NCBI GenBank assembly: GCA_001899805.1
Contig: MKWP01000009.1
Location: 124,001-188,000 of the forward strand
DNA length: 64,000 bases
Reading direction: 5' to 3'
Source of the DNA: Lysobacterales bacterium 66-474
GTDB lineage: Bacteria; Pseudomonadota; Gammaproteobacteria; Xanthomonadales; Rhodanobacteraceae
Shown here: positions 9,887 through 52,812 of the stretch, one piece after another
Numbering within the stretch: position 1 is the stretch's first letter
Layout of the letters: each line of letters begins with the position of its first letter
Notes under the pieces: generated by a model
What the model saw: only the letters and a program-made list of their open reading frames with translations
What the model was told of the DNA's origin: nothing
Database searches by the model: none
Program-made: the position numbers and the translations under genes

Positions 9887-10387
9887 ATGTCCGGCACCAA
9901 ATTCAAGGGCAACCCCGTCCACGTCGACGGTCATTTTCCGAAGGTCGGCGACAAGGCGCCGGCATTCAAGTTGATTGCGGGCGATCTGTCCGAAAAGTCG
10001 CTGGCCGACTTCACGGGCAAGCGCAAGGTGTTGAACATCTTCCCGAGCGTGGACACCGGCGTGTGTGCGGCGTCGGTCCGGCATTTCAACAAGGACGCGG
10101 CGGGGCTGAAGAACGCCGTGGTGCTGTGCATTTCCGCCGACCTGCCGTTCGCACAGGCTCGCTTCTGCGGCGCCGAAGGCATCGAGAACGTCGTCATGCT
10201 GTCGATGATGCGCGGCCGCGAATTCCTGAAGGACTATGGCGTCGCCATGACCGACGGTCCGCTGGCCGGCCTCGCCGCGCGCGCCGTGGTGGTGCTGGAC
10301 GAACACGACAAGGTGGTCTACACGCAGATGGTGGACGACATCACCCACGAACCCGATTACGCGGCGGCGCTGAAAGCGCTCGGCTGA
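9887..10387 (+). CDS. tpx: Thiol peroxidase (atypical 2-Cys peroxiredoxin)
   Basis: 166 residues. Reduces hydrogen peroxide and alkyl hydroperoxides using thioredoxin. The peroxidatic cysteine is C60 in [13 protein letters not shown] and the resolving cysteine is C94 in ARFCGAEG, the same spacing as Escherichia coli Tpx. A GAGGAG ribosome-binding site precedes the ATG. The region after the stop codon is occupied by a large repeat. Identification is secure. Confidence 0.97.
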
Positions 10388-10470
10388 CTCATTCGCGTTT
10401 GCTGTTCTCCCTTGTGGAGATGGTTTACGTGGCGGATGGGTGAGGGCACGTAATCGCGAGCCATTCATCA

Positions 10471-11065
10471 CTCGACATTCCTGTCATTTTCCGCCTGCCT
10501 CCCTGGCAGGCGTGTGACTTTCTCTTGCGTGGCCAAGAGAAAGTCACCAAAGAGAAGGCCACCCCGGTGCCGCGTCTTTCGTCCGTCCGTGGACGAAAGG
10601 TGCGTTCGACCCGGCCGGGCTTGCCGACGCGCCATCCCTGGCGCGACGGCAAGTGGGCGCAATCCCTTGCGCCCACCCTGCGGGCCTGATCGTCCGGTCC
10701 TCACCGCAGCACAGGGGCCCCGTTGGCGCGCTTCCTGCGCGCCGTTGTGTCGACGCCAATCGCTTGGTCTTGCTTCGAACGAGGCCATGGATGGCCGCGA
10801 GCAAAGTAGAGCTCCCAGGCGCCGTTGGCGGTGCCGCAGCCATGCCGCCGAGCGCGCGGGAAAGGCGCGTGTGTTTGAGGGCAGGATGCCCGAGTTCGCG
10901 CCGGCGCGCGCGAGGCAAGTGGCAAGGGCAGTCGAACGAACACGATGTTCGTTTGACCGCCGCCTCCGGCGCCATGGTCTTTGGTAACTTTCTGCCGAAA
11001 CAGAAAGTTACCCGCTCGCCGCAGAGGCGAGCGGAACCCAATCAGGACGGTGCGTACTTGCGAGA
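10471..11065 (+). repeat. Long hairpin-array repeat element, copy A
   Basis: Fills most of the 739-bp gap between tpx and gap; no plausible gene is seen inside. It is a string of near-perfect inverted repeats: stems at 10492-10512, 10514-10547 (14 bp, loop CGTGGC), 10620-10653, 10653-10676 (10 bp, loop TCCC), 10725-10743, about 10931-10957, 10983-11012 (12 bp, loop CCGAAA) and 11012-11034. The same order of hairpins recurs at 52134-52812, with changed stems and conserved loops. Short peptides encoded by it look like translation artefacts. The bases 10388-10470 show nothing clear. Confidence 0.85.
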
Positions 11066-11126
11066 AGCAGAGATCTCGGCCTGCGTCAGGATGATCGCGA
11101 CCGACACGTCGAAGACTGCGACGCGC

Positions 11127-12137
11127 TCAGCGCGCGTTCGCGAACGCCTCGGTCATGTCCAGCATGCGGTTCGAGAAGCCCCACTCGTTGTCGTACCAGC
11201 CCAGCACTTTCACGAAGGTGCCTTCCATCACGCGGGTCTGGGTGGCGTCGTAGGTGCAGGACGCCGGGTTGTGGTTGAAGTCGATCGACACCAGCGGTTT
11301 GGTGTTGACCGCCATCACGCCCTTCAGCTTGCCGTTGGCGGCTTCGTTGATCACGGCGTCGATCTCGTCCTTGCTGGTCGCGCGCTTGGCGACGAAGGTC
11401 AGGTCCACGCACGACACGTTGATGGTGGGAATGCGCATCGAGAAGCCGTCCAGGCGGCCATTCAACTCCGGAAGCACCAGGCCGACCGCGACCGCGGCGC
11501 CGGTCTTGGTCGGGATCTGGCTGTGGGTCGCGGAACGCGCGCGGCGCAGGTCCTTGTGGAACACGTCGGTCAGCACCTGGTCGTTGGTGTAGGCGTGGAT
11601 CGTGGTCATCAGGCCGTGCACGATGCCGATCTTTTCGTGCAGCACCTTGGCCAACGGCGCCAGGCAGTTGGTGGTGCACGACGCGTTCGAAATGATGGTG
11701 TCGCTCGGCTTGATCTTGTCCTCGTTGACGCCGAACACGAAGGTGCCATCGACGCCCTCGCCGGGCGCGGAGATGATCACCTTCTTCGCACCGGCAGCAA
11801 GGTGCGCCGCGGCCTTGTCGCGCTTGGTGAACAGGCCGGTCGATTCGATCACGACGTCGACGCCGAGGTCCTTCCACGGCAATTTCGACGGGTCGCGCTC
11901 GGCACACACCTTGATGCGGTCGCCATTGACGACGAGATCGCCGCCCTCGACGCCGACGGTGCCGGGGAACTTGCCGTGCGCGGTGTCGTATTGCGTCAGG
12001 TGCGCGTTGGTGTTCGCGTCGCCCAGGTCGTTGATCGCGACGATCTTCATCGCGCCGGTACGGTTGGATTCGTACAGCGCACGCAGGATGTTGCGGCCGA
12101 TGCGGCCATAGCCGTTGATCGCGACCTTGATCGCCAT
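11127..12137 (-). CDS. gap: Glyceraldehyde-3-phosphate dehydrogenase, type I
   Basis: 336 residues. Converts glyceraldehyde 3-phosphate, phosphate and NAD+ into 1,3-bisphosphoglycerate in glycolysis. The Rossmann motif INGYGRIGR is at the N-terminus, the catalytic cysteine is C154 in [12 protein letters not shown], the catalytic histidine follows in [10 protein letters not shown], and the C-terminal [12 protein letters not shown] block is intact. The IPTKTGAA segment differs slightly from the common IPTSTGAA. The ATG is preceded by AAAGGAC. Monocistronic by context, with large repeat A beyond its 3' end. Confidence 0.98.
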
Positions 12138-16355: not shown

Positions 16356-16458
16356 CCCTCTCCCTCCGGGAGAGGGCGGCGCGCAGCGCCGGGTGAGGGT
16401 CCGGGTCACGCGCAAGGCTCGTACCCTCACCCCTGCCCCTCTCCGGGTGGGAGAGGGG
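16356..16458. repeat. REP-like CTCTCCC palindrome pair
   Basis: Two palindromes (CCCTCTCCC-tcc-GGGAGAGGG at 16356-16376 and CCCCTCTCC...GGGAGAGGGG ending at 16458) flanking inverted GCGCAGCGCCGGGTGAGGG and CCCTCACCC segments. The same family is seen at 22254-22299 and, in frame, inside valS at about 49985-50057. Lies between the J-domain gene and rpe. Confidence 0.8.
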
Positions 16459-16498
16459 TTCAGGCAGCCGTCCTTTGCGCGCATCCGGAACAGGTGTC

Positions 16499-22314: not shown

Positions 22315-22356
22315 CGTCATTCCGGGGCCGTGCGTAGCACGGAACCCGGAACCGGT
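22315..22356. repeat. REP-like CGTCATTCCGGGG repeat, single copy
   Basis: CGTCATTCCGGGGC, a small stem GTGCGTAGCAC, then GGAACCCGGAACC. Half of the paired elements at 26424-26619, 34631-34764 and 39377-39467. It abuts the truncated hairpin-array copy C. Confidence 0.75.
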
Positions 22357-22372
22357 TGGATTTTTTTCGCAA

Positions 22373-22545
22373 GCACGCCACGATCGGACCGGGTTCCGCT
22401 CACCTCGGCGGCGAGCGGGCTACTTTCTGTTTCGGCAGAAAGTAGCCAAAGACCATTGCGCCTGGCATGCCGGTTTCGGCAACATCGTGTTGCCGAAACT
22501 TCCCTGTGCTTCTCACGCCGAGCGGGCCGGCGCGGGAAAAGACAA
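22373..22545 (-). repeat. Long hairpin-array repeat element, truncated copy C
   Basis: Reading the minus strand, the 3' part of the element seen at 10471 and 52134: a stem at 22473-22499 (12 bp, GTTTCGGCAACA / TGTTGCCGAAAC), GGCGCAATGGTCTTTGG, the 12-bp stem at 22418-22447 with loop CCGAAA, and the CCGCTCGCC / GGTGAGCGG stem at 22396-22418, then GGAACCC and TGCTTGCG. The 5' half with TCC loops is missing. Up to 22594 a small stem GGGCCTA-acc-TAGGCCC overlaps the lptG stop. Confidence 0.8.
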
Positions 22546-22594
22546 TAACGTGGTTGCCAAGACAAACTGTGCTCGCGCGCGCAGCGGGCCTAAC

Positions 22595-23692
22595 CTAGGC
22601 CCGCCGGTAATACCACACCGCGATCGCCAGCAACAGCAGCGCCGGGATGAGGTTGATCACGAACGGGGGTGCGCCCAGCACCGTGCCGGTGCTGATGATC
22701 GCGCGTTGGATGAAGTACCACGCGATCGCGACGATCACGCCCAGGAACAGGCGTTTGCCGAGTCCGCCCGAGCGCAGCGCGCCGAAGCCGAACGGCAGCG
22801 CGCACAGCACCAGCAACACGGTGTTGGCGGGGTAGAACACGCGCGTCCACCAGGCGTTGAGGTAGACGCCCGGGTTCTGGCGGTTGGCTCGCAGGTAGTC
22901 GATGCTGCGCGAAAGATCGCGCAGCGAGAGGTATTCCGGGTGCGCGACCGAGGCCTGCAGCACGTCGGGATCGAGCGAGGTTTTCCATGCCTGTTGCGCG
23001 GAGGTGACGCTGACCACGCCGTCCGGCGACACCCTGGTCTCGCGCACGTCGTGCAGCATCCACGACTTGCCGTCCTGCGTGGCCAGCTTGGCGCGGCGAA
23101 ACGAGGTCAGCTCGCCGGCGTCGTTGAAACCGAACACCCGCACGTCGGCGAGTTCGACCTCGCGCCGGCCACGCTCGATCCTCGCCAGCGCCGCCTTGGC
23201 GTTGATGATGTCGTTGCCGTCGCGTTCCCACAGGCCGCTGCCCTGGCGCACGCGCAGTTGCCCGGAGCTGCGCTGCAGCTGGATTTCCTGGGCATGCTGT
23301 TCGCCCGCGGGCGCGACGGTTTCGCCCAGCACGAACACGCCCGCCATCAGCACCGCGACCAGCCCGGTGACCGACAGGCTGATCCTGAGCCTGGACATGC
23401 CCGCCGCGCGCAAGGCGGTGAGCTCGCCGGTGGTGGCCAGCGCGCCGACGCCGACCAGGCTGCCGATCAGCGCGGCGAACACGAACCACTGGTAGGCGCG
23501 GCGCGGCACGGTCAGCAGGATGTAGGCGACCGCCTTGCCGAGCGAATAGCCGTTGTGGCCGATGCCGCCGATCTGCTTGGCGAATTCCATGAAGGTGTCG
23601 AGCCCGGTCAACACCAGCCAGGTCAGCAACAGCCCGCCCAGCACCGTTGTCGCGATCAGGAGATCGGCGCGCTTGATCCGGAAGCGTTGCAT
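22595..23692 (-). CDS. lptG: LPS export ABC transporter permease LptG
   Basis: 365 residues. With LptF it forms the inner-membrane part of the LptB2FG machine that extracts lipopolysaccharide for transport to the outer membrane. Transmembrane helices are visible near residues 10-32, 60-82, 100-122, then a periplasmic jellyroll-like domain (about 130-260) and further C-terminal helices (TVLLVLCALPFGF, LFLGVIVAIAWYFIQ, LIPALLLLAIAVWYY). The ATG was chosen at MQRFRIKRADLL, 11 bp after the lptF stop codon. Confidence 0.96.
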   Translation of the reverse strand: MQRFRIKRADLLIATTVLGGLLLTWLVLTGLDTFMEFAKQIGGIGHNGYSLGKAVAYILLTVPRRAYQWFVFAALIGSLVGVGALATTGELTALRAAGMSRLRISLSVTGLVAVLMAGVFVLGETVAPAGEQHAQEIQLQRSSGQLRVRQGSGLWERDGNDIINAKAALARIERGRREVELADVRVFGFNDAGELTSFRRAKLATQDGKSWMLHDVRETRVSPDGVVSVTSAQQAWKTSLDPDVLQASVAHPEYLSLRDLSRSIDYLRANRQNPGVYLNAWWTRVFYPANTVLLVLCALPFGFGALRSGGLGKRLFLGVIVAIAWYFIQRAIISTGTVLGAPPFVINLIPALLLLAIAVWYYRRA

Positions 23693-26399: not shown

Positions 26400-26423
26400 T
26401 GGCGCAACGCCACAAAACCTTGT

Positions 26424-26619
26424 CGTCATTCCGGGGCATCGCCGGTTTCATCGGCGATGAACCCGGAATCGGTTGCGGACTTGTGCGCACCATGACACCG
26501 ATTGGCTCGCGCCATCCATGACGTGCACTTGTACATATCCTCGTGCGCGTCCTCGTGCGCGGAATCAAAACCGATTCCGGGTTCCGCCGTGATGGAGCTG
26601 CGGCGGCCCCGGAATGACG
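26424..26619. repeat. Paired CGTCATTCCGGGG element (MITE/BIME-like)
   Basis: A 196-bp unit: CGTCATTCCGGGGC ... GAACCCGGAATCGG at the left and the inverted CCGATTCCGGGTTC ... GGCCCCGGAATGACG at the right, separated by about 95 bp. Together they form an inverted repeat. No gene is seen in the 376 bp between pepA and the next gene. Confidence 0.85.
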
Positions 26620-26756
26620 AAGAAAGAAGGCCGTTCGCCGCGCCTGGGATGACGGGCAAGCGAGCGTTGCCCGCCAGTCGACCTGTGTCGCGCCTGTGCC
26701 GGCGATACACTGCGCGCGACTGGAAGCCGGCCTCCACCGGCGGGAAACCGTGAAGC

Positions 26757-34630: not shown

Positions 34631-34764
34631 CGTCATTCCGGGGCCGTTCGCAGCTTCATCGCGAACGGAACCCGGAATCTGGTGCCTTTGATCCCACGCT
34701 GGAAACAAGCAACTGGATTCCGGGTTCTGCGTCGGACTTCGTCCGTCGCAGCCCCGGAATGACG
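34631..34764. repeat. Paired CGTCATTCCGGGG element (MITE/BIME-like)
   Basis: 134 bp: CGTCATTCCGGGGC with inner stem CGTTCGC-agcttcat-GCGAACG and GGAACCCGGAATC, a 40-bp spacer, then the inverted GATTCCGGGTT ... GCCCCGGAATGACG. Same organisation as 26424-26619. Lies between the DUF836 gene and sdaA. Confidence 0.85.
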
Positions 34765-39376: not shown

Positions 39377-39467
39377 CGTCATTCCGGGGCCGCCGAAGGC
39401 GGAACCCGGAATCCATTTTGCTCTATCGACGAAATCAAGATGGATTCCGGCTTCCGCCGGAATGACG
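39377..39467. repeat. Paired CGTCATTCCGG element inside the secretion operon
   Basis: CGTCATTCCGGGGC-CGCC-gaa-GGCGGAACCCGGAATCC, a short spacer, then GGATTCCGG-CTTCCG-CCGGAATGACG. A compact relative of 26424-26619. Together with the GGGACC run it separates gspF from gspG, where other junctions in the operon overlap or are under 15 bp except gspN-gspD. Confidence 0.85.
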
Positions 39468-39485: not shown

Positions 39486-39908
39486 ATGAATTCGCTGCAC
39501 CGAGCCCCGCAGCGTCGTCGCGGCTTCACGTTGCTCGAAATGCTGGCGGTGATCGTGCTGCTGGGCATCGTGGGCGTGATCGTCGCGCGTTCGGTGTCCG
39601 GGCGCGTGGATACCGGCAAGTGGGATGCGGGCAAGATCGGCGTCACCAAGCTCGACCAGGACGTGCAGGCCTACGCGCTGGACAACGGTTCGCCGCCCAG
39701 GTCGCTGGACGACCTGCTCACCAAGCCGCTGAACGCGCCGTCGTGGAACGGCCCGTATGCGAAGCCCGCCGACCTCAACGATCCGTTCGGGCATCCGTAT
39801 GCCTACGTGTATCCCGGCAAGCATGGGCAGTACGACATCGTCTTCTATGGCCGCGACGGCAAGGCCGGCGGCGAGGGCGTCGATCGTGATTACGGCAACT
39901 GGCAATAG
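39486..39908 (+). CDS. gspG: Major pseudopilin GspG
   Basis: 140 residues. Prepilin peptidase site after RRRG, giving FTLLEMLAVIVLLGIVGV with the conserved Glu at position 5. The C-terminal part (LNAPSWNGPYAKPADLNDPFGHPYAY, YPGKHGQYDIVFYG) is the calcium-binding-type GspG fold. The start follows GGCAGGG; the upstream in-frame sequence is repeat DNA. Confidence 0.95.
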   Translation: MNSLHRAPQRRRGFTLLEMLAVIVLLGIVGVIVARSVSGRVDTGKWDAGKIGVTKLDQDVQAYALDNGSPPRSLDDLLTKPLNAPSWNGPYAKPADLNDPFGHPYAYVYPGKHGQYDIVFYGRDGKAGGEGVDRDYGNWQ

Positions 39909-40356
39909 GGACCATCGGTCGGCGGCGGGGTTCACACTGATCGAAATGCTGGCGGTGATCGTGTTGATCGCGATCGCCGCCAGCGTCACCGCCGTGGCGT
40001 TGCGCGGACGCGCCCATGGCCAACTCGACGCCACGGCGCAGCGCGTGGCGGCGGGGTTGCGCGACACCCGTACCCGCGCGATGGCCACCGGCAAGCCGCA
40101 ATGGTTCAGCGTCGACCTGCGCGCCCGCACCTTCGCCGCGCCGGGGCGGGAACCGCGTGCGTGGCCGAACGGCGCGACCCTCAAGGTCACGTCGGCGGCC
40201 GAGGATGTGCAGCAGGCCGGCGTCGCGCGCATCCGCTATTTTCCGGACGGCAGTTCCAGCGGCGGCAACATCGTGCTCGTCGGCGAACACCGCAGCGTGC
40301 GCGTCGACGTGGATTGGCTGACCGGCGCCGTGACGGTGGACCAGCGCCATGAGTAG
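39886..40356 (+). CDS. gspH: Minor pseudopilin GspH
   Basis: 156 residues from a GTG that overlaps the end of gspG by 23 bp. Prepilin leader ends SAAG before FTLIEMLAVIVLIAIAAS. The C-terminal domain is of the GspH type (AAGLRDTRTRAMATGKPQWFSVDL, IRYFPDGSSSGGNI, VDWLTGAV). The GTG start is inferred from GAGGG upstream and the short leader; no in-frame ATG fits. Confidence 0.9.
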   Translation: MITATGNRDHRSAAGFTLIEMLAVIVLIAIAASVTAVALRGRAHGQLDATAQRVAAGLRDTRTRAMATGKPQWFSVDLRARTFAAPGREPRAWPNGATLKVTSAAEDVQQAGVARIRYFPDGSSSGGNIVLVGEHRSVRVDVDWLTGAVTVDQRHE

Positions 40357-40786
40357 CACGCGCGGCTTCACCCTGATCGAGGTGCTGGCCGCGATCGCGC
40401 TGCTGGCGATCGCCTTCGCGGTGGGTCTCGGCGCGCTCGGCAAGGCTGCGCAGAACGCGGGCCGCAGCGCGGCGCTGTCGACCGCGGTCGAGCGCGCGCA
40501 AAGCCTGTTGGCCGAACAGGGCTTGACGGCGCCGCTGCACAACGAGGCCTTGTCGGGAAACTTCGACGACGGCATGCACTGGACGCTGAAGGTCCACGCG
40601 TTGCCGAAATCCGCATCCGCGCAGGGCGCCGCGGGCGGCGTGGCAGCGCCGCAGCAGGGCGCGTTGCTGGCGCAGGCGTCGGCCATCGACCTGTATCAAC
40701 TCGACATCGCGGTGCAATACGGCGCGGGTCGCAGCCTGCGGTTGTCGACGCAGCGCGCGCAGGCGCCGCCGGACACGCAACCATGA
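40349..40786 (+). CDS. gspI: Minor pseudopilin GspI
   Basis: 145 residues. A very short leader MSSTRG precedes FTLIEVLAAIALLAIAFAVG, the hydrophobic helix with Glu5. The rest is a small pseudopilin domain with an alanine/glutamine-rich insert (QGAAGGVAAPQQG). Position between H and J in the order typical of Xanthomonas supports the call. Overlaps gspH by 8 bp. Confidence 0.92.
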   Translation: MSSTRGFTLIEVLAAIALLAIAFAVGLGALGKAAQNAGRSAALSTAVERAQSLLAEQGLTAPLHNEALSGNFDDGMHWTLKVHALPKSASAQGAAGGVAAPQQGALLAQASAIDLYQLDIAVQYGAGRSLRLSTQRAQAPPDTQP

Positions 40787-41430
40787 AACGCACGCGTCGC
40801 CAGGCCGGCTTCACCCTGCTGGAAATCCTGCTGGCGCTGGCCTTGCTGGCGTTGGTGATGCTCGGCGTGTGGGGCGCGCTGGCCGGCGCCACGCGGGTCC
40901 GCCGTGGCGCGGATGCGGTGATGGCGCAGAGCGAGGAGGTACGCAGCGTGCAGCAGTTCCTGCGCCGCCACGTCGCGGCGGCCGGAATACAACCCTGGGT
41001 TACCGAGACCGGCACACGCGCGCGCATGTTCGAAGGCAATGCCGCGTCGATGAGTTACGTCGCACCCTTGCCGCTGCAGTCGGGACACGCGGGCTTGTAC
41101 CTGCAAACCCTGAGCATCGAACAGGGCGGGCAGGGCATGACGCTGTGGCTGGCGTACCAGCCCTATACCGGCGATGCACCGGCCAGCGGCGAACCCGTGC
41201 GCCACGTGCTGCTGCGGGACCTGCGCGGCGGCAGGTTCCAGTACCTCGCCGCGGCCGCATTCGGCAAGCCGGCGGCGTGGCGCGACGACTGGCTGACCAC
41301 AGGCGGCTTGCCGCTGGCGGTGCGCGTCCACGTCGATCCCGGCTGGCGCGCGCGGGTGCCGTTCCCCGACATGGTCATCCCGCTGCACAGTGGCGAGGGC
41401 TTCGGTGCCCAGATCGGCGGTGCACCGTGA
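40783..41430 (+). CDS. gspJ: Minor pseudopilin GspJ
   Basis: 215 residues. Leader MKRTRRQAG then FTLLEILLALALLALVMLGV. GspJ-type features include QFLRRHVAAAGIQPW and a long beta-rich domain (MTLWLAYQPY, HVLLRDLRGGRFQYL). With GspI and GspK it forms the tip of the pseudopilus. Overlaps gspI by 4 bp and gspK by 4 bp (GTGA). Confidence 0.93.
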   Translation: MKRTRRQAGFTLLEILLALALLALVMLGVWGALAGATRVRRGADAVMAQSEEVRSVQQFLRRHVAAAGIQPWVTETGTRARMFEGNAASMSYVAPLPLQSGHAGLYLQTLSIEQGGQGMTLWLAYQPYTGDAPASGEPVRHVLLRDLRGGRFQYLAAAAFGKPAAWRDDWLTTGGLPLAVRVHVDPGWRARVPFPDMVIPLHSGEGFGAQIGGAP

Positions 41431-49136: not shown

Positions 49137-52001
49137 TCAGGCTTGCAGCCTTTCCACCTGGCCGCGCAACGCATCCAGTTGGGTGTTCCAGTCGGACAAG
49201 CGCGTGCGTTCCTGCTCGACCACTTCGGCGGGCGCGTGGTCCACGAAGTTCGCGTTGCCGAGCTTGCCTTCGGATTTCTTCTTCTCGCCTTCGATGCGCG
49301 CGATCTCCTTCTTGAGGCGTGCGCGCTCGGCGTCGAGGTCGATCAGGCCGGCCAGCGGGATCAGTACGCGCAAGTTGCCGACAATGGCGGCTGCCGCCGC
49401 AGGCTCGGCCTCGTTCGCTGCCAGCCAGCGGGGCACCTCGCAGCGCGCGAGGAATCCGATCTGGGCGGAGAACTTGTCAGCCCGGCGGCGATCGTCCGCA
49501 TCGCCGTCGGCCAGCAACAACGGAATGGTCTTGCCCGGCGCGATGTTCATTTCCGAACGAATCTTGCGCACGCCGGTCAATACCGCCTTGAACCATTCGA
49601 TCTCGGCGCTGGCCGTATCGTCCACCACGAATTCGTCCGCGCGCGGGTAGGGCCGATCAAGAATGCCTGGCGCTTGCAAGCCGAGTTGAGGTGCCACCGA
49701 TTGCCAGATTTCCTCGGTGATGAACGGGATGACCGGGTGCAGTGCGCGCAGCGCGGTTTCCAGCACCACCAGCAAGGTATGGCGCGTGGACGCGGCGGCT
49801 TCGGCATCGTCGCCATTCAACGCGGGTTTCGAAAGTTCCAGGAACCAGTCGCAGTATTCGTTCCACACGAATTCGTAGAGCGCCTGTGCGAGGTGATCGA
49901 AACGGTACGTCGCGAAATGCTGTTCGACTTCCACGAGCGTCGCGTGCAGGCGGGTGAGGATCCAGCGCTCCGCCTCGGTTTGCGGCCCCCCTCCCACTCG
50001 CGCTGCGCGCTCGCCGCCCTCCCCCGCATGCGGGGGAGGGTTGGGGTGGGGGGAGTCCTTCATGTTCATCAACACGAACCGCGCCGCGTTCCACAGCTTG
50101 TTGCAGAACGCCTTGTAGCCGTCGGCGCGTTTCAGGTCGAAGTTGATGGTGCGGCTGTAACTCGCCAGCGCCGCAAAGGTGAAGCGCAACGCGTCGGTGC
50201 CGATCGCGGCGATGCCGTCGGGATAATCCTTGCGGATGCGCTTCTCCACTTTCTCGCGCACCTGCGGGATCAGCAGCGACTTCGTGGATTTTTCGACCAG
50301 CGCGGGCAGGGTGATGCCGTCGATCAGGTCCAGCGGGTCCAGGGTATTGCCCTTGGACTTCGACATCTTCTGGCCTTCCGCGTCGCGCACGATCGCATTG
50401 ATGTAGACCTCGCGAAACGGCACCTGCTTCGTGAAGTACAGGGTCGTCATCACCATCCGCGCGACCCAGAAGAAGATGATGTCGAAGCCGGTGACCAGCA
50501 CCGCGCTCGGCAGGAAGATCTTGTCGGCCGACCAGTTCGCGACGATCTCGCCACGTTCGTTTTTCACCGGCTCGTTCGATGGCCAGCCAAGCGTGGAGAA
50601 GGGCCACAGCGCGGAGGAGAACCACGTGTCCAGCACGTCGTCGTCCTGTTTCAACGCACCGACGGGTTGCACGCTTGCATGCGTGCGCGCGTCCGCCTCG
50701 TCTTCGCCCACGAAAATGTTGCCGGCTTCGTCGTACCACGCGGGAATCCGGTGGCCCCACCACAGCTGGCGCGAAATGCACCAGTCCTGGATGTTGTCCA
50801 GCCATTGCGTGTACGTGGTCGCCCAGTTCTCCGGCACGAACTTGATGTCGCCGTTGCGTACCGCATCCAGCGCTGGCTGCGTGATCGCTGTGCGCCCCTT
50901 GTTTGAAGTCAGGTCCACGAACCACTGGTCGGTGAGCATCGGCTCGATCACCGCGTCCGAGCGTTGGCTTACCGGAACCTGCAGCTTGTGCGGTTTGGTT
51001 TCGACAAGACGATCTTCTGCTTCCAGGTCCGCAAGGATCGCCTTGCGTGCGACATAGCGGTCCATACCGCGGTATTTTTCCGGTGCGTTGTCATTGACCT
51101 TCGCATCCAGCGTCAGGATACCGATCGTGTCCAGCTTGTGTCGCTGTCCGATCGCGTAGTCGTTGAAGTCGTGCGCCGGCGTGATCTTCACGCAGCCGGT
51201 ACCGAATTCGCGGTCCACGTAATCATCGGCGATGACCGGAATCTCGCGATTTGTGAGTGGCAATCGCAGACGCTTGCCGACCAGCTTCGCGTAACGCTCG
51301 TCCTCGGGATGCACCGCCACCGCGACGTCGCCCAGCATGGTTTCCGGGCGCGTGGTCGCGATCACCACGTGATCAGGGGCGCCGGGTTGCGGATCGATCA
51401 CGTCGTAGCGGATCGACCACAGGTGCCCATCGCGCTCGACATTGTTGACTTCGAGGTCGGACACCGCGGTCATCAGCACCGGGTCCCAGTTCACCAGCCG
51501 GTTGCCGCGATAGATCAGGCCGGCGCGGTACCACTCGACGAACACCTTGCGTACCGCGGCGGACAGGCCTTCGTCCATCGTGAAGCGTTCGCGCGACCAG
51601 TCGACGCTTGCGCCCAACCGGCGCATCTGCTTGTAGATGCCATTGCCCGATTCCTGCTTCCACTGCCACACGCGTTCGACGAACTGCTCGCGGCCGAGGT
51701 CATGGCGCGCCTTGCCTTCCGCGGCCAACTGGTTCTCGACGATCTTCTGCGTGGCGATGCCCGCGTGGTCGGTGCCGCCCTGCCACAAGGTGTTCCTGCC
51801 GGACATCCGCGCGTGTCGGATCAGTGCGTCCATGATGGTTTGCTGGAACGCGTGGCCCATGTGCAGCGTGCCGGTGACGTTCGGCGGCGGCAACAGGATC
51901 GAATACGGTTCGCCCTTTCCGGACGGCTTGAAGCAGCCCGCGTCTTCCCAGCGCGCGTACCACTTCGATTCGATCTGCTTGGGGTCGAAACTCTTGTCCA
52001 T
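49137..52001 (-). CDS. valS: Valyl-tRNA synthetase with a repeat-derived insertion
   Basis: 954 residues. Class I synthetase: [13 protein letters not shown] (HIGH-type) at the N-terminus, the editing domain with [28 protein letters not shown] (KMSKS), the anticodon-binding domain and a C-terminal coiled coil. Between catalytic core and anticodon domain, after [12 protein letters not shown], there is a low-complexity insert ([13 protein letters not shown] and VGGGPQ, residues about 649-672) encoded by a REP-like palindrome. Start [11 protein letters not shown] agrees with the family. Confidence 0.96.
49985..50057. repeat. REP-like palindrome lying in frame within valS
   Basis: A perfect 24-bp palindrome (CCCTCCCCCGCA / TGCGGGGGAGGG, 50017-50040) next to GCGCGCAGCGCGAGTGGGAGG, the same family as 16356-16458 and 22254-22299. 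It has no stop codon in the valS frame and encodes residues about 649-672. Confidence 0.85.
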
Positions 52002-52133: not shown

Positions 52134-52812
52134 TTCGACGTCCCTGTCTTTTTCCGCCCGCCACCCGGGCGGGCGTGTGACTTCTCTTTGCGTCGCCAAA
52201 GAGAAGTCACCAAGAGAAAGGCGACCCCGCGAACACGCCCTTCGTCCATCCATGGACTACGGGTTTGCTCGCGGTCGCCGGGGTTCGCCGACGGTACATC
52301 CATGTACCCACGGCGAACTGGCCCGCATCCTGCGGGCCATCCTTCGGACTGATTCGTCGTCCGCTCGCCGTGTTCGAGGGGCCCCTGCTAGCGCGCCTCC
52401 TGCGCGCGGCCATGTCGAGGCTTGCCGTTTGGTCTTGCTTCGCACGAGGCCATGGATGGCCGGCAGCGGAGCGATACGGGCGCCGTTGGCGGTGCCGCAG
52501 CCGCGCCGACGATCGCGCGAGCAAGGCGCGCATGTCCGACTGCAGGGATGCAGGACTAAATCGGCAGGGACTGCCGATTTGAACGCCGAAGGCGGCCCTG
52601 AGCGTCAGCGAAGGGCGAGCCACAGGGATGTGGCGAGTAGTCTCGCGCCGGTGCGCGATCGGTAAGCGGCAAGGGCAATCGAGACAACAGGACGTTGTCG
52701 AGATTACCGCCTCAGGCGCAATGGTTTTTGGGTACTTTTTGCCGAAACAAAAAGTACCCCGCTCGCCGCCGAGGCGAGCGGAACCCAATACGGGCGTGAT
52801 GTGCTTGCGAGC
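52134..52812 (+). repeat. Long hairpin-array repeat element, copy B
   Basis: Fills most of the 861-bp gap between valS and rodA. Hairpins in the same order as copy A: 52155-52175, 52177-52210 (14-bp stem, loop CGTCGC), 52283-52318 (compound stem with inner GGTACA-TCCA-TGTACC), then GGCCCGCA-TCC-TGCGGGCC, GCGCGC-CTCCT-GCGCGC, GGCCAT-GG-ATGGCC, AATCGGCAG-GGA-CTGCCGATT, CCACA-GGGA-TGTGG, 52730-52759 (12 bp, loop CCGAAA) and CCGCTCGCC-GCCGA-GGCGAGCGG. No plausible gene inside. The bases 52002-52133 show nothing identifiable. Confidence 0.85.

Follow-up and report, generated by a model that had tools for sequence, protein, structure and literature searches.

Triple helices in the major groove of H-type pseudoknots are known from the SAM-II and preQ1-II riboswitches, telomerase RNA and ENE-like elements; in the H-type geometry, loop 1 (L1) lies in the deep groove of stem 2 (S2), parallel to the S2' strand. 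The SAM-V riboswitch is likewise described as an H-type major-groove triplex pseudoknot. CsrA sites have been ascribed to the TwoAYGGAY motif and to the reverse complement of the Bacillaceae-1 motif in PMC4333381, and the CsrA-type small RNAs (sRNAs) of Alteromonas that are reported in PMC5864184 differ from the element described here. Among repeats, the one characterized in PMC4666352 forms a G/C-rich purine-motif DNA triplex, CCCTCNCCC..GGGNGAGGG..GGGNGAGGG. Here we analyze a dispersed intergenic element that is present in three copies, A, B and C, in a 64,000-nucleotide stretch of the genome of Lysobacterales bacterium 66-474 (contig MKWP01000009.1, positions 124,001 to 188,000; hereafter, the window). 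This is probably a mobile, or formerly mobile, element with arms that act as RNA, each combining a CsrA/RsmA-bound array with a triplex-pseudoknot 3' end.

A first-pass annotation of the window had recognized an ordered series of inverted repeats common to copy A (10471-11065) and copy B (52134-52812), and the ordered blocks indeed align at 77-82% identity. The paired substitutions that it reported are present as claimed: the second stem is GTGACTTTCTCTTG at 10514-10527 in copy A and GTGACTTCTCTTTG in copy B, each fully complementary to its own partner, and the stems with the loop CCGAAA read GGTAACTTTCTG, GGGTACTTTTTG and GGCTACTTTCTG in copies A, B and C, respectively. Copy C is truncated and reversed in orientation relative to A and B, with its R end at 22392-22476. 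When compared with dinucleotide shuffles, the folds of copies A and B have z scores of -9.24 and -8.35. The annotation had named the discovery of a conserved protein as one of the results that would speak against RNA structure; four open reading frames (ORFs) of copy A have no match in Pfam or NCBIfam at E<=0.1, and the coding explanation was dropped. A scan of the window against Rfam revealed no known RNA family at the gathering cut-off, and a permissive search of 11 loci gave 13 matches, all below the family cut-off and mostly to queA, RsmW, Bacillaceae-1 and tfoR. The strand polarity, pseudoknot, third strand, cargo genes and wide distribution reported below go beyond that annotation.

The covariance-model search that the annotation had suggested found the family to be multicopy in the source genome and present also in its relatives. 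In the source genome (3.73 Mb, 16 contigs), a DNA search gave 34 matches at E<=0.001, a few of which are weak and link one end of an element to its other end. Covariance models were made from 23 R-type and 9 L-type sequences, one model per end type; they identified 28 R-type ends (>=57 bits) and 11 L-type ends (>=63 bits), lower-scoring matches in either list being cross-matches to the other end type. Altogether, there are 10 full L-R elements (~550-640 bp), 6 inverted R'-R pairs, 6 single R ends and 1 single L end. An element consists of two inverted arms of ~250 bp each that flank a variable centre. From the outside inwards, an end comprises a terminal small hairpin GACATCCCTGTC, which some copies lack, the hairpins hp1 and hp2, and a hairpin series of which the innermost member, GGCCATCCATGGCC, precedes the cargo where there is one. 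Terminal inverted repeats of the kind found in miniature inverted-repeat transposable elements (MITEs) are present in the sense that the arms are inverted, and repeated in structure rather than by letters. As a separate observation, R-type hp2 and hp1 resemble the Rfam queA motif (L015:2741-2796, 27.7 bits, and L010:1710-1759, 26.5 bits, of 52.6 bits; loop GCCGAAAC), to which they are possibly distantly related.

Read outwards, each arm contains toward its 3' end an H-type pseudoknot with the order S1 (GUGGCC) - L1 (UUCUCUUU) - S2 (GGUGACUUUCUCUU) - S1' (GGCCAC) - GC - S2' (AAGAGAAAGUCACC). In an alignment of 28 distinct ends (A3; 28 of the 39 representatives), 97.8% of the pairs are standard, compared with 84.9% after shuffling of partners and 42-55% after sliding by 1-3 columns, and two-sided changes occur in 12 of 18 pairs, including 4 of 4 in the pseudoknot helix S1 and 8 of 14 in S2. 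Four of five measures were above all 500 shuffles; further pair types (17) were not above shuffles (17.9). A raw R-end alignment analyzed with RNAalifold showed two-sided changes in only 2 of 13 pairs because MAFFT gaps fell inside the stem, and the R ends were therefore parsed directly. The structural covariation proposed in the first-pass annotation is strong, both in alignment A3 and in a three-strand match of the L- and R-type ends.

L1 shows no ordinary complementarity to S2'. Its bases instead run parallel to the purine strand of S2' and correspond to it one by one as U.A and C.G Hoogsteen pairs. Among the L-type ends with <=4 mismatches (158 of 174, the set used also for the G.U counts below), which fall into six sequence classes, the match extends over all 8 positions in 157 of 158; when L1 was shuffled among ends, 2000 trials averaged 72 and reached at most 87. 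In the loci found by the L-type pattern, 5 of the 8 triplet positions are fixed by the pattern itself, so that the test rests on the other three and the shuffle. The R-type ends were analyzed with a parser that demands a pyrimidine run and a purine run and that parsed 52 of 54 ends; the match is found in all 52 (shuffle mean 24, maximum 35), and a longer L1 accompanies longer purine runs. Of 36 ends from other genomes, detected with the pseudoknot model R3 or located on a Pasteurella multocida replicon, 33 match over 6-9 positions by script and the remaining three by eye, one plainly and two with a G facing a T-A inversion. By eye, the T-A inversion in the stem is met by a third-strand G in L282 and L283; G.T-A is a known triplet. 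Within the window, all three strands change in concert between the L ends of copies A and B, from UUCUCUUU over AAGAGAAA in A to UUUCUCUU over AAAGAGAA in B. Model R3, which was built from L-type ends only, also detects the outward-strand R ends of copies A, B and C, with E values from 5e-6 to 1e-4. As far as sequence can tell, this parallel covariation of L1 with the purine strand of S2 is the mark of a U.A-U / C.G-C triple helix in the major groove.

The two strands of an arm are not equivalent. In 30 arms from 15 of the 16 paired elements of the source genome (the L009 element was left out), hairpins of at least four pairs with GGA in the loop occur 109 times on the outward strand and twice on the inward strand, against 14 in letter shuffles; in 120 arms from other taxa, the respective numbers are 291, 11 and ~50. 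In the source genome, as in many other genomes, these hairpins form an array on the 5' side of the pseudoknot. The loop context is CA(N)GGATG, which is close to the CsrA consensus from SELEX (systematic evolution of ligands by exponential enrichment). The non-Watson-Crick cells of the L-type stem are of the G.U type on the outward strand in 90 cases and on the inward strand in 2, with 6 others, and given that 86 of the 90 lie at one stem position, they represent few events. Across all hairpins, unique internal non-Watson-Crick pairs of the G.U type number 30 outward and 11 inward, several of them at the stem position of the L-type cells. These one-strand features mark the strand that runs from the centre outwards as the functional one, and each arm covaries as a folded single strand. 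Given that the functional strand runs outward in each of the two inverted arms, the element is not a one-directional RNA gene.

The annotation had also suggested that the hairpins are recognized by a protein, for which CsrA/RsmA is a plausible candidate in view of the outward-strand GGA loops and of the restriction of the arrays to CsrA-bearing genomes among those examined. CsrA (PF02599) is detected above the cut-off in the source genome (G000). In a search of 18 loci, TwoAYGGAY (RF01731, which belongs to clan CL00106 together with RsmW) reaches the Rfam cut-off on the outward strand inside the elements L162 and L165, and Bacillaceae-1 reaches its own inside L192, there in the reverse-complement orientation of PMC4333381; for both motifs, the strands found agree with outward transcripts. 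CsrA is encoded in 13 of 20 chosen genomes and is missing from all six genomes of one family (f16) and from G274. Arms with two or more GGA hairpins account for 0 of 27 in the 7 CsrA-less genomes and 21 of 31 in 12 CsrA-bearing ones, a contrast that amounts to about two independent points because 6 of the 7 CsrA-less genomes belong to one family; the genomes were hand-chosen. In the CsrA-less arms, GGA hairpins are found 7 times outward, 7 times inward and 10 times in shuffles, and in the CsrA-bearing arms 55, 3 and 10 times, respectively. This comparison included unique arms of >=220 bases (58 with CsrA status and 2 of G057) from hand-picked loci, part of which were picked before the CsrA status was known. 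The presence of GGA arrays only in the CsrA-bearing genomes of this set is what a CsrA ligand predicts. Of the 120 arms from other taxa, the 6 labelled Burkholderiales, Thiobacillus, Sulfuriferula and Desulfobulbus have no GGA hairpins. At L343 and L344, where the ends face each other, the GGA hairpins still lie upstream on each end's own strand, so that the array and the pseudoknot together behave as a single directional unit.

With respect to mobility, the annotation had left the choice between a structured non-coding RNA family and a non-autonomous mobile element with protein-recognized hairpins, and the two are supported together, the dispersal by insertion polymorphism between congeneric genomes. 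Copy A lies between the convergent genes tpx (9887-10387, + strand) and gapA (11127-12137, - strand), which were named from a reading of their translations rather than by family search. By eye, the tpx-gapA gap contains no element in five relatives (G004, G014, G010, G002 and G001), a different L-R element located elsewhere in the gap in G003, and a single R arm in G006. Four of the 16 paired elements in the source genome hold one foreign gene: the R'-R pairs L008, L010, L015/L016 and L019 span ~1.28-1.37 kb and contain one ORF of 207-255 amino acids (aa) each, and the R'-R pairs L012 and L017 have little in the middle. The neighbours of the loaded element L008 are adjacent, without cargo, in five relatives (G006, G009, G010, G012 and G013; gaps of 49-471 bp), and those of L019 in eight (gaps of 34-768 bp); neither cargo gene was found at any of the other loci searched (13 and 15, respectively). 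For the first of these two sites, 14 of 15 loci were used, L310 being left out. An hp1-like remnant is present in the G006 gap at the L008 site, and arm-like sequence near the L019 site in two other genomes. The family is multicopy, its positions vary among species of the genus, and a single foreign gene lies in the centre of some members.

The four cargo ORFs of the source genome are, by eye, mutually unrelated. The G+C content of the loaded elements is 53-57% in the centre versus 61-67% in the arms, and all four ORFs score below the threshold of a codon model derived from 25 long ORFs of the window; judging from these low scores, the cargo is foreign-looking. The four proteins have no Pfam match above the cut-off and no PADLOC match at E<=0.1, and one of them, compared with plasmids by tblastn, gave no match. 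In other genomes, the cargo includes an FRG-domain protein (L121; PADLOC candidate PDC-S15), a RAMA/DUF2924-like protein below the Pfam cut-offs (L124), a HEPN protein (L279), a protein without a match (L123) and a 178-aa ORF in Methylomonas (L159). The locus L278, with 2.7 kb between the ends, was not counted as cargo-bearing because it may represent two separate copies around host genes. Two further observations concern element centres. Inside the Methylomonas element, beside another cargo gene, there is an ORF that is RAYT-like (REP-associated tyrosine transposase; REP, repetitive extragenic palindrome) by eye, with its own GTAGGGTGGGCAC-type hairpin repeats (L159:5530-5964). Runs of the hexamers GCCTTT or CTTCGG fill the centre of some elements of other genera (L233:3250-3520 and L093:1800-1840), perhaps as a result of slippage.

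Among the 19 copies of the source genome that could be classified, of 20 tried, the flanking genes are convergent in 10, codirectional in 7 and divergent in 2; the 26 window gaps of >=60 bp, delineated with a simple purpose-made gene caller, comprise 5, 18 and 3, respectively. Other repeats frequently surround the ends in a mirror-image arrangement, such that the order at L008 and L019 is BoxC-like, GTCATTCC type, arm, cargo, arm and back, and this wrapping blurs the exact ends. The nesting at these two loci looks as though successive repeats had each inserted into the middle of an inverted pair already present. Units of the GTCATTCC kind, which often lie directly outside the hairpin-array elements, are found in the window at 22316, 34632-34763 and 39378-39466. 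No target-site duplication and no matching autonomous transposon were found; element-free sites are available for comparison, but the ends are buried in other repeats.

R-type ends are present in all 16 genomes of the genus and, in a sample of relatives, in 19 of 61 genomes and 4 of 40 genera. The paired ends in other genera of the family are both of the L type, so that the R type looks like a local variant. In a collection with one genome per species, the exact L-type pattern occurs in at least 120 stretches, and the matches listed include Dyella, Rhodanobacter, Dokdonella, Lysobacter, Aquimonas, Pseudomonas and Aeromonas as well as Methylomonas, Thiobacillus, Burkholderiales, Stenotrophobium and a Desulfobulbus metagenome-assembled genome. 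The pseudoknot, as detected with R3, is present in 49 of 249 genomes sampled evenly across the phylum, and frequently numerous; a single family (f40) of another class accounts for 28 of the 49 genomes, with weaker scores, and the three f40 ends that were read are single. The P. multocida replicon mentioned above carries a pair of ends beside dapF, and a search of E. coli genomes with the Pasteurella end gave no match. Of 21 loci in other genomes with two strong ends within 3 kb, many of them chosen for showing pairs, 17 are outward pairs. Copy A has no match among plasmids; the G019 element matched 11 plasmid records, with a coverage of only 8-9% each, and no phage. The L-type pattern was also found in one IMG/VR contig (L349).

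Under the interpretation that we consider probable, the two outward arms would give every transcript that leaves the element, on either side, an arm as its end, whether it started at the cargo gene or read through from a neighbour. CsrA/RsmA would hold the GGA array of that arm, the triplex pseudoknot would provide a compact, nuclease-resistant 3' end, and the element could serve as a portable, orientation-independent 3' untranslated region (UTR) or as a CsrA sponge. Transcription of the arms, CsrA binding and 3' protection are the steps that we infer.

Several observations weigh against this interpretation, in addition to the concentration of the G.U-type cells at one stem position, the positions fixed by the L-type pattern and the near-confinement of the CsrA-less genomes to one family. 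Covariation alone cannot tell RNA from single-stranded DNA, and a folding-energy test for strand preference gave no signal (mean z 0.08, 15 of 30 arms). In the copy A region (10400-11150), there are 0 promoter-like sites, with the sigma-70 consensus as the only one searched, and 0 intrinsic terminators. A third TwoAYGGAY match, at L158, lies 3.5 kb away from the element there, and the best clan match of the window copies, RsmW in copy A, reaches 26.4 of 52 bits, which is below the cut-off. Of the 12 CsrA-bearing genomes, 6 (G071, G167, G183, G095, G135 and G257) have pseudoknots without GGA arrays, which leaves the core unexplained by CsrA; that core is the pseudoknot, to which the array is a lineage-dependent addition. 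Four of the 21 two-end loci are arranged otherwise, with the ends in the same direction in L293 and L340 and facing in L343 and L344, and of the 120 pattern loci only 19 had a facing partner in an ungapped scan.

The main rival explanation, which appears unlikely although it has to be taken seriously, is that the arms serve as single-stranded DNA at the ends of an intermediate in transposition or replication, with the hairpins and the pseudoknot recognized by a recombinase or guarding a 3' overhang. Hairpins at the telomeres of Streptomyces and at the ends of parvoviruses are analogies for such a role, and the outward strands are indeed the 3'-ending strands of the element. The inverted ends of the 16 paired elements in the source genome and of the 17 outward pairs elsewhere (many of them, as noted, picked as pairs), the cargo between inverted arms, the insertion polymorphism and the indifference of RNA folding energy to the strand all fit this explanation. 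However, recognition of DNA does not predict GGA loops on one strand or arrays that track the presence of CsrA, and the facing ends of L343 and L344 each keep an upstream array on their own strand, as an RNA unit would. Furthermore, the source genome lacks a Y1 transposase, and no protein recurs among the cargo ORFs examined.

It is distinctly improbable that the copies are decaying MITE-like repeats or bidirectional terminators without an RNA function, with the covariation stemming only from active source copies. Some copies are truncated or have broken stems (copy C and the G003 copy beside gapA), and the copy A region yielded no promoter, in line with this explanation. Against it, that region yielded no match to an intrinsic terminator, and the three-strand covariation across many genera implies long-lasting selection on structure in the lineage, whatever the fate of single copies.

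Given that the tracts are short and nearly palindromic, antiparallel pairing was tested as a further rival, in which L1 and the 5' arm are competitors for pairing with the purine strand (a strand-exchange switch), there is no triple helix, and the parallel appearance comes from the near-palindromic tracts. The commonest classes also allow an antiparallel match of 7/8, and in the class CTTTCTTT with AAAGAAAG the antiparallel match is the longer one, 8 versus 7. Nevertheless, the asymmetric classes fit the parallel arrangement (TTCTTTTT, 8 versus 6; TTCTTTT, 7 versus 5; TTTGCTTT, 8 versus 4), and over 27 classes, hand-listed from the L-type, R-type and other-genome ends with the S1 bases trimmed, the parallel match is longer in 19, equal in 7 and shorter in 1. 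The register and the groove side are also those of an H-type pseudoknot, and we consider strand exchange very unlikely. Finally, REPIN- or BIME-type repeats (REP doublets forming hairpins and bacterial interspersed mosaic elements) moved by a RAYT transposase share with the element inverted palindromic units that are dispersed, intergenic and non-coding, but this explanation is next to untenable because the 250-bp pseudoknot arms are unlike REPs of 20-40 bp, the sole RAYT-like ORF encountered (L159, by eye) has separate flanking repeats and, unless a very divergent RAYT exists, it is refuted for the source genome (99.96% complete) by 0 matches to PF01797 (Y1_Tnp), with E. coli and 4 other controls positive.

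Beyond the reading of the arms as RNA, we put forward, tentatively and as a possibility rather than an expectation, that these elements constitute an undescribed class of mobile cassettes that extends across Gammaproteobacteria, as defined by GTDB, and into one or more other classes, with inverted triplex-pseudoknot ends and with CsrA/RsmA recruited via GGA arrays in some of the CsrA-owning lineages. A single structure could then be used for mobility, as a recognized end, and also for cargo expression, as a protected 3' UTR. If so, genomes with dozens of copies would carry a distributed CsrA sponge, and mobile DNA would in part determine how much CsrA/RsmA, which as a master regulator governs metabolism, biofilm and virulence, the cell has at its disposal. 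A large class of intergenic repeats would be structured nucleic acid rather than junk, the naturally covarying major-groove triplex pseudoknot would offer rich data on the rules of RNA triplexes, and the known cassettes would be joined by a new single-gene type, of which the examples here contain FRG, HEPN and RAMA-like genes.

In the window, copy A is a full L-R element at 10473-11067, with a left boundary at CGACATTCC (10473) and a less sharp right boundary at ~11039-11067. On its - strand, which is outward on this side, the left arm comprises the terminal GGA hairpin (10474-10485; GACAGGAATGTC on the outward strand), the outer hairpin hp1 (10492-10512), also with GGA in the loop, and the L-end triplex pseudoknot at 10513-10565 (R3 match, 80.4 bits), the parts of which are S2 (10514-10527/10534-10547), S1 (10558-10561/10530-10533) and the third strand L1 (10549-10556). 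Further inwards follow GGA-loop hairpins at 10576-10599, 10628-10645 (CGCGCCAGGGATGGCGCG), 10653-10676 and, adjoining the centre, 10725-10743. The right arm, on the + strand, starts with its innermost GGA hairpin GGCCATGGATGGCC (10783-10796), followed by two more at 10853-10869 and 10879-10891 (span 10853-10891), the R-end triplex pseudoknot with the loop CCGAAA (10966-11012; R3 match, E 5.4e-6; L1 10978-10982, S2 10983-10994/11001-11012) and the outer hairpin hp1 (11013-11033). Copy B, an L-R element at 52134-52812, has its L-end triplex pseudoknot at 52176-52228 (- strand) and its R-end counterpart, with UUUUU over AAAAA, at 52713-52759 (+ strand). Its left arm contains four GGA hairpins on the - strand (52244-52257, 52293-52308, 52319-52339 and 52391-52407; span 52244-52407), and its right arm five on the + strand (52448-52461, 52540-52553, 52558-52580, 52619-52634 and 52683-52699; span 52448-52699), including an extra hairpin block at ~52558-52640 that is found also in L014. 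Copy C, the truncated element, occupies 22364-22491 on the - strand and has an R end (R1 match at 22392-22476, R3 match at 22418-22464); no GGA hairpins were found in 22340-22600.

Other features of the window were noted in passing. These are a MITE-like repeat of ~198 bp (26423-26620) with 52-nt inverted ends starting TCGTCATTCCGGGG, of a kind that is frequently located just outside the hairpin-array elements; a 90-nt duplicate at 1164-1253 and 1990-2079 (99% identity, 826 bp apart) adjoining a 300-nt repeat at 71%; and, at 39522-40855, four similar 49-nt stretches that by eye resemble a prepilin N-terminus, spaced by 406-443 bp, which probably represent a pseudopilin gene cluster. BoxC-like CCCTCNCCC..GGGNGAGGG hairpins, resembling the purine-motif triplex repeat of PMC4666352, occur at 16356-16460 and 50017-50041.

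No description of this element was found in the open literature on REP/REPIN/MITE repeats, on CsrA/RsmA with repeats, on TwoAYGGAY or on triplex pseudoknots, the literal module sequences had no match there, and a search of the loci against Rfam 15 gave no match above the cut-off for the pseudoknot itself. The parts are known singly, as CsrA sponges, triplex pseudoknots, dispersed repeats and intrastrand triplex repeats; the literature searched contained no case in which they are combined in a single mobile element with cargo. The arrays of GGA-loop hairpins are shared with the CsrB/RsmX-Y-Z-W sRNAs and TwoAYGGAY, and the many dispersed copies, the two inverted arms, the central cargo and the triplex pseudoknot on the 3' side set the element apart from these sRNAs, as do, for copy A, the lack of a detectable promoter or terminator of its own and, for the window copies, scores below every Rfam cut-off. 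With the H-type triplex pseudoknots, it has in common the order S1-L1-S2-S1'-S2' and a loop 1 of pyrimidines that lies in the S2 groove, but S2 is longer (12-14 bp), the loop forms up to 8-9 covarying triplets, and the structure sits at the ends of a repeat element. The BoxC, PIT and TM-ECO repeats of PMC4666352 are likewise abundant and dispersed in bacteria and can form an intrastrand triplex; unlike the one characterized there, the element has a pyrimidine-motif triplex within a pseudoknot. A scan of the window with the BoxC consensus CCCTCNCCC found no site within copy A (10473-11067) or B (52134-52812), and the BoxC-like hairpins, which occur also around some elements, are separate from the copies. 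REP, BIME and REPIN sequences and MITEs resemble it in being non-coding, palindromic, intergenic and dispersed, and differ from it in that there is no RAYT in the genome, the structured arms are much larger and genes are carried as cargo. In the attC cassettes of integrons, too, single foreign genes adjoin folded single-strand structures, whereas the element described here has inverted arms on both sides and is scattered singly over the genome.

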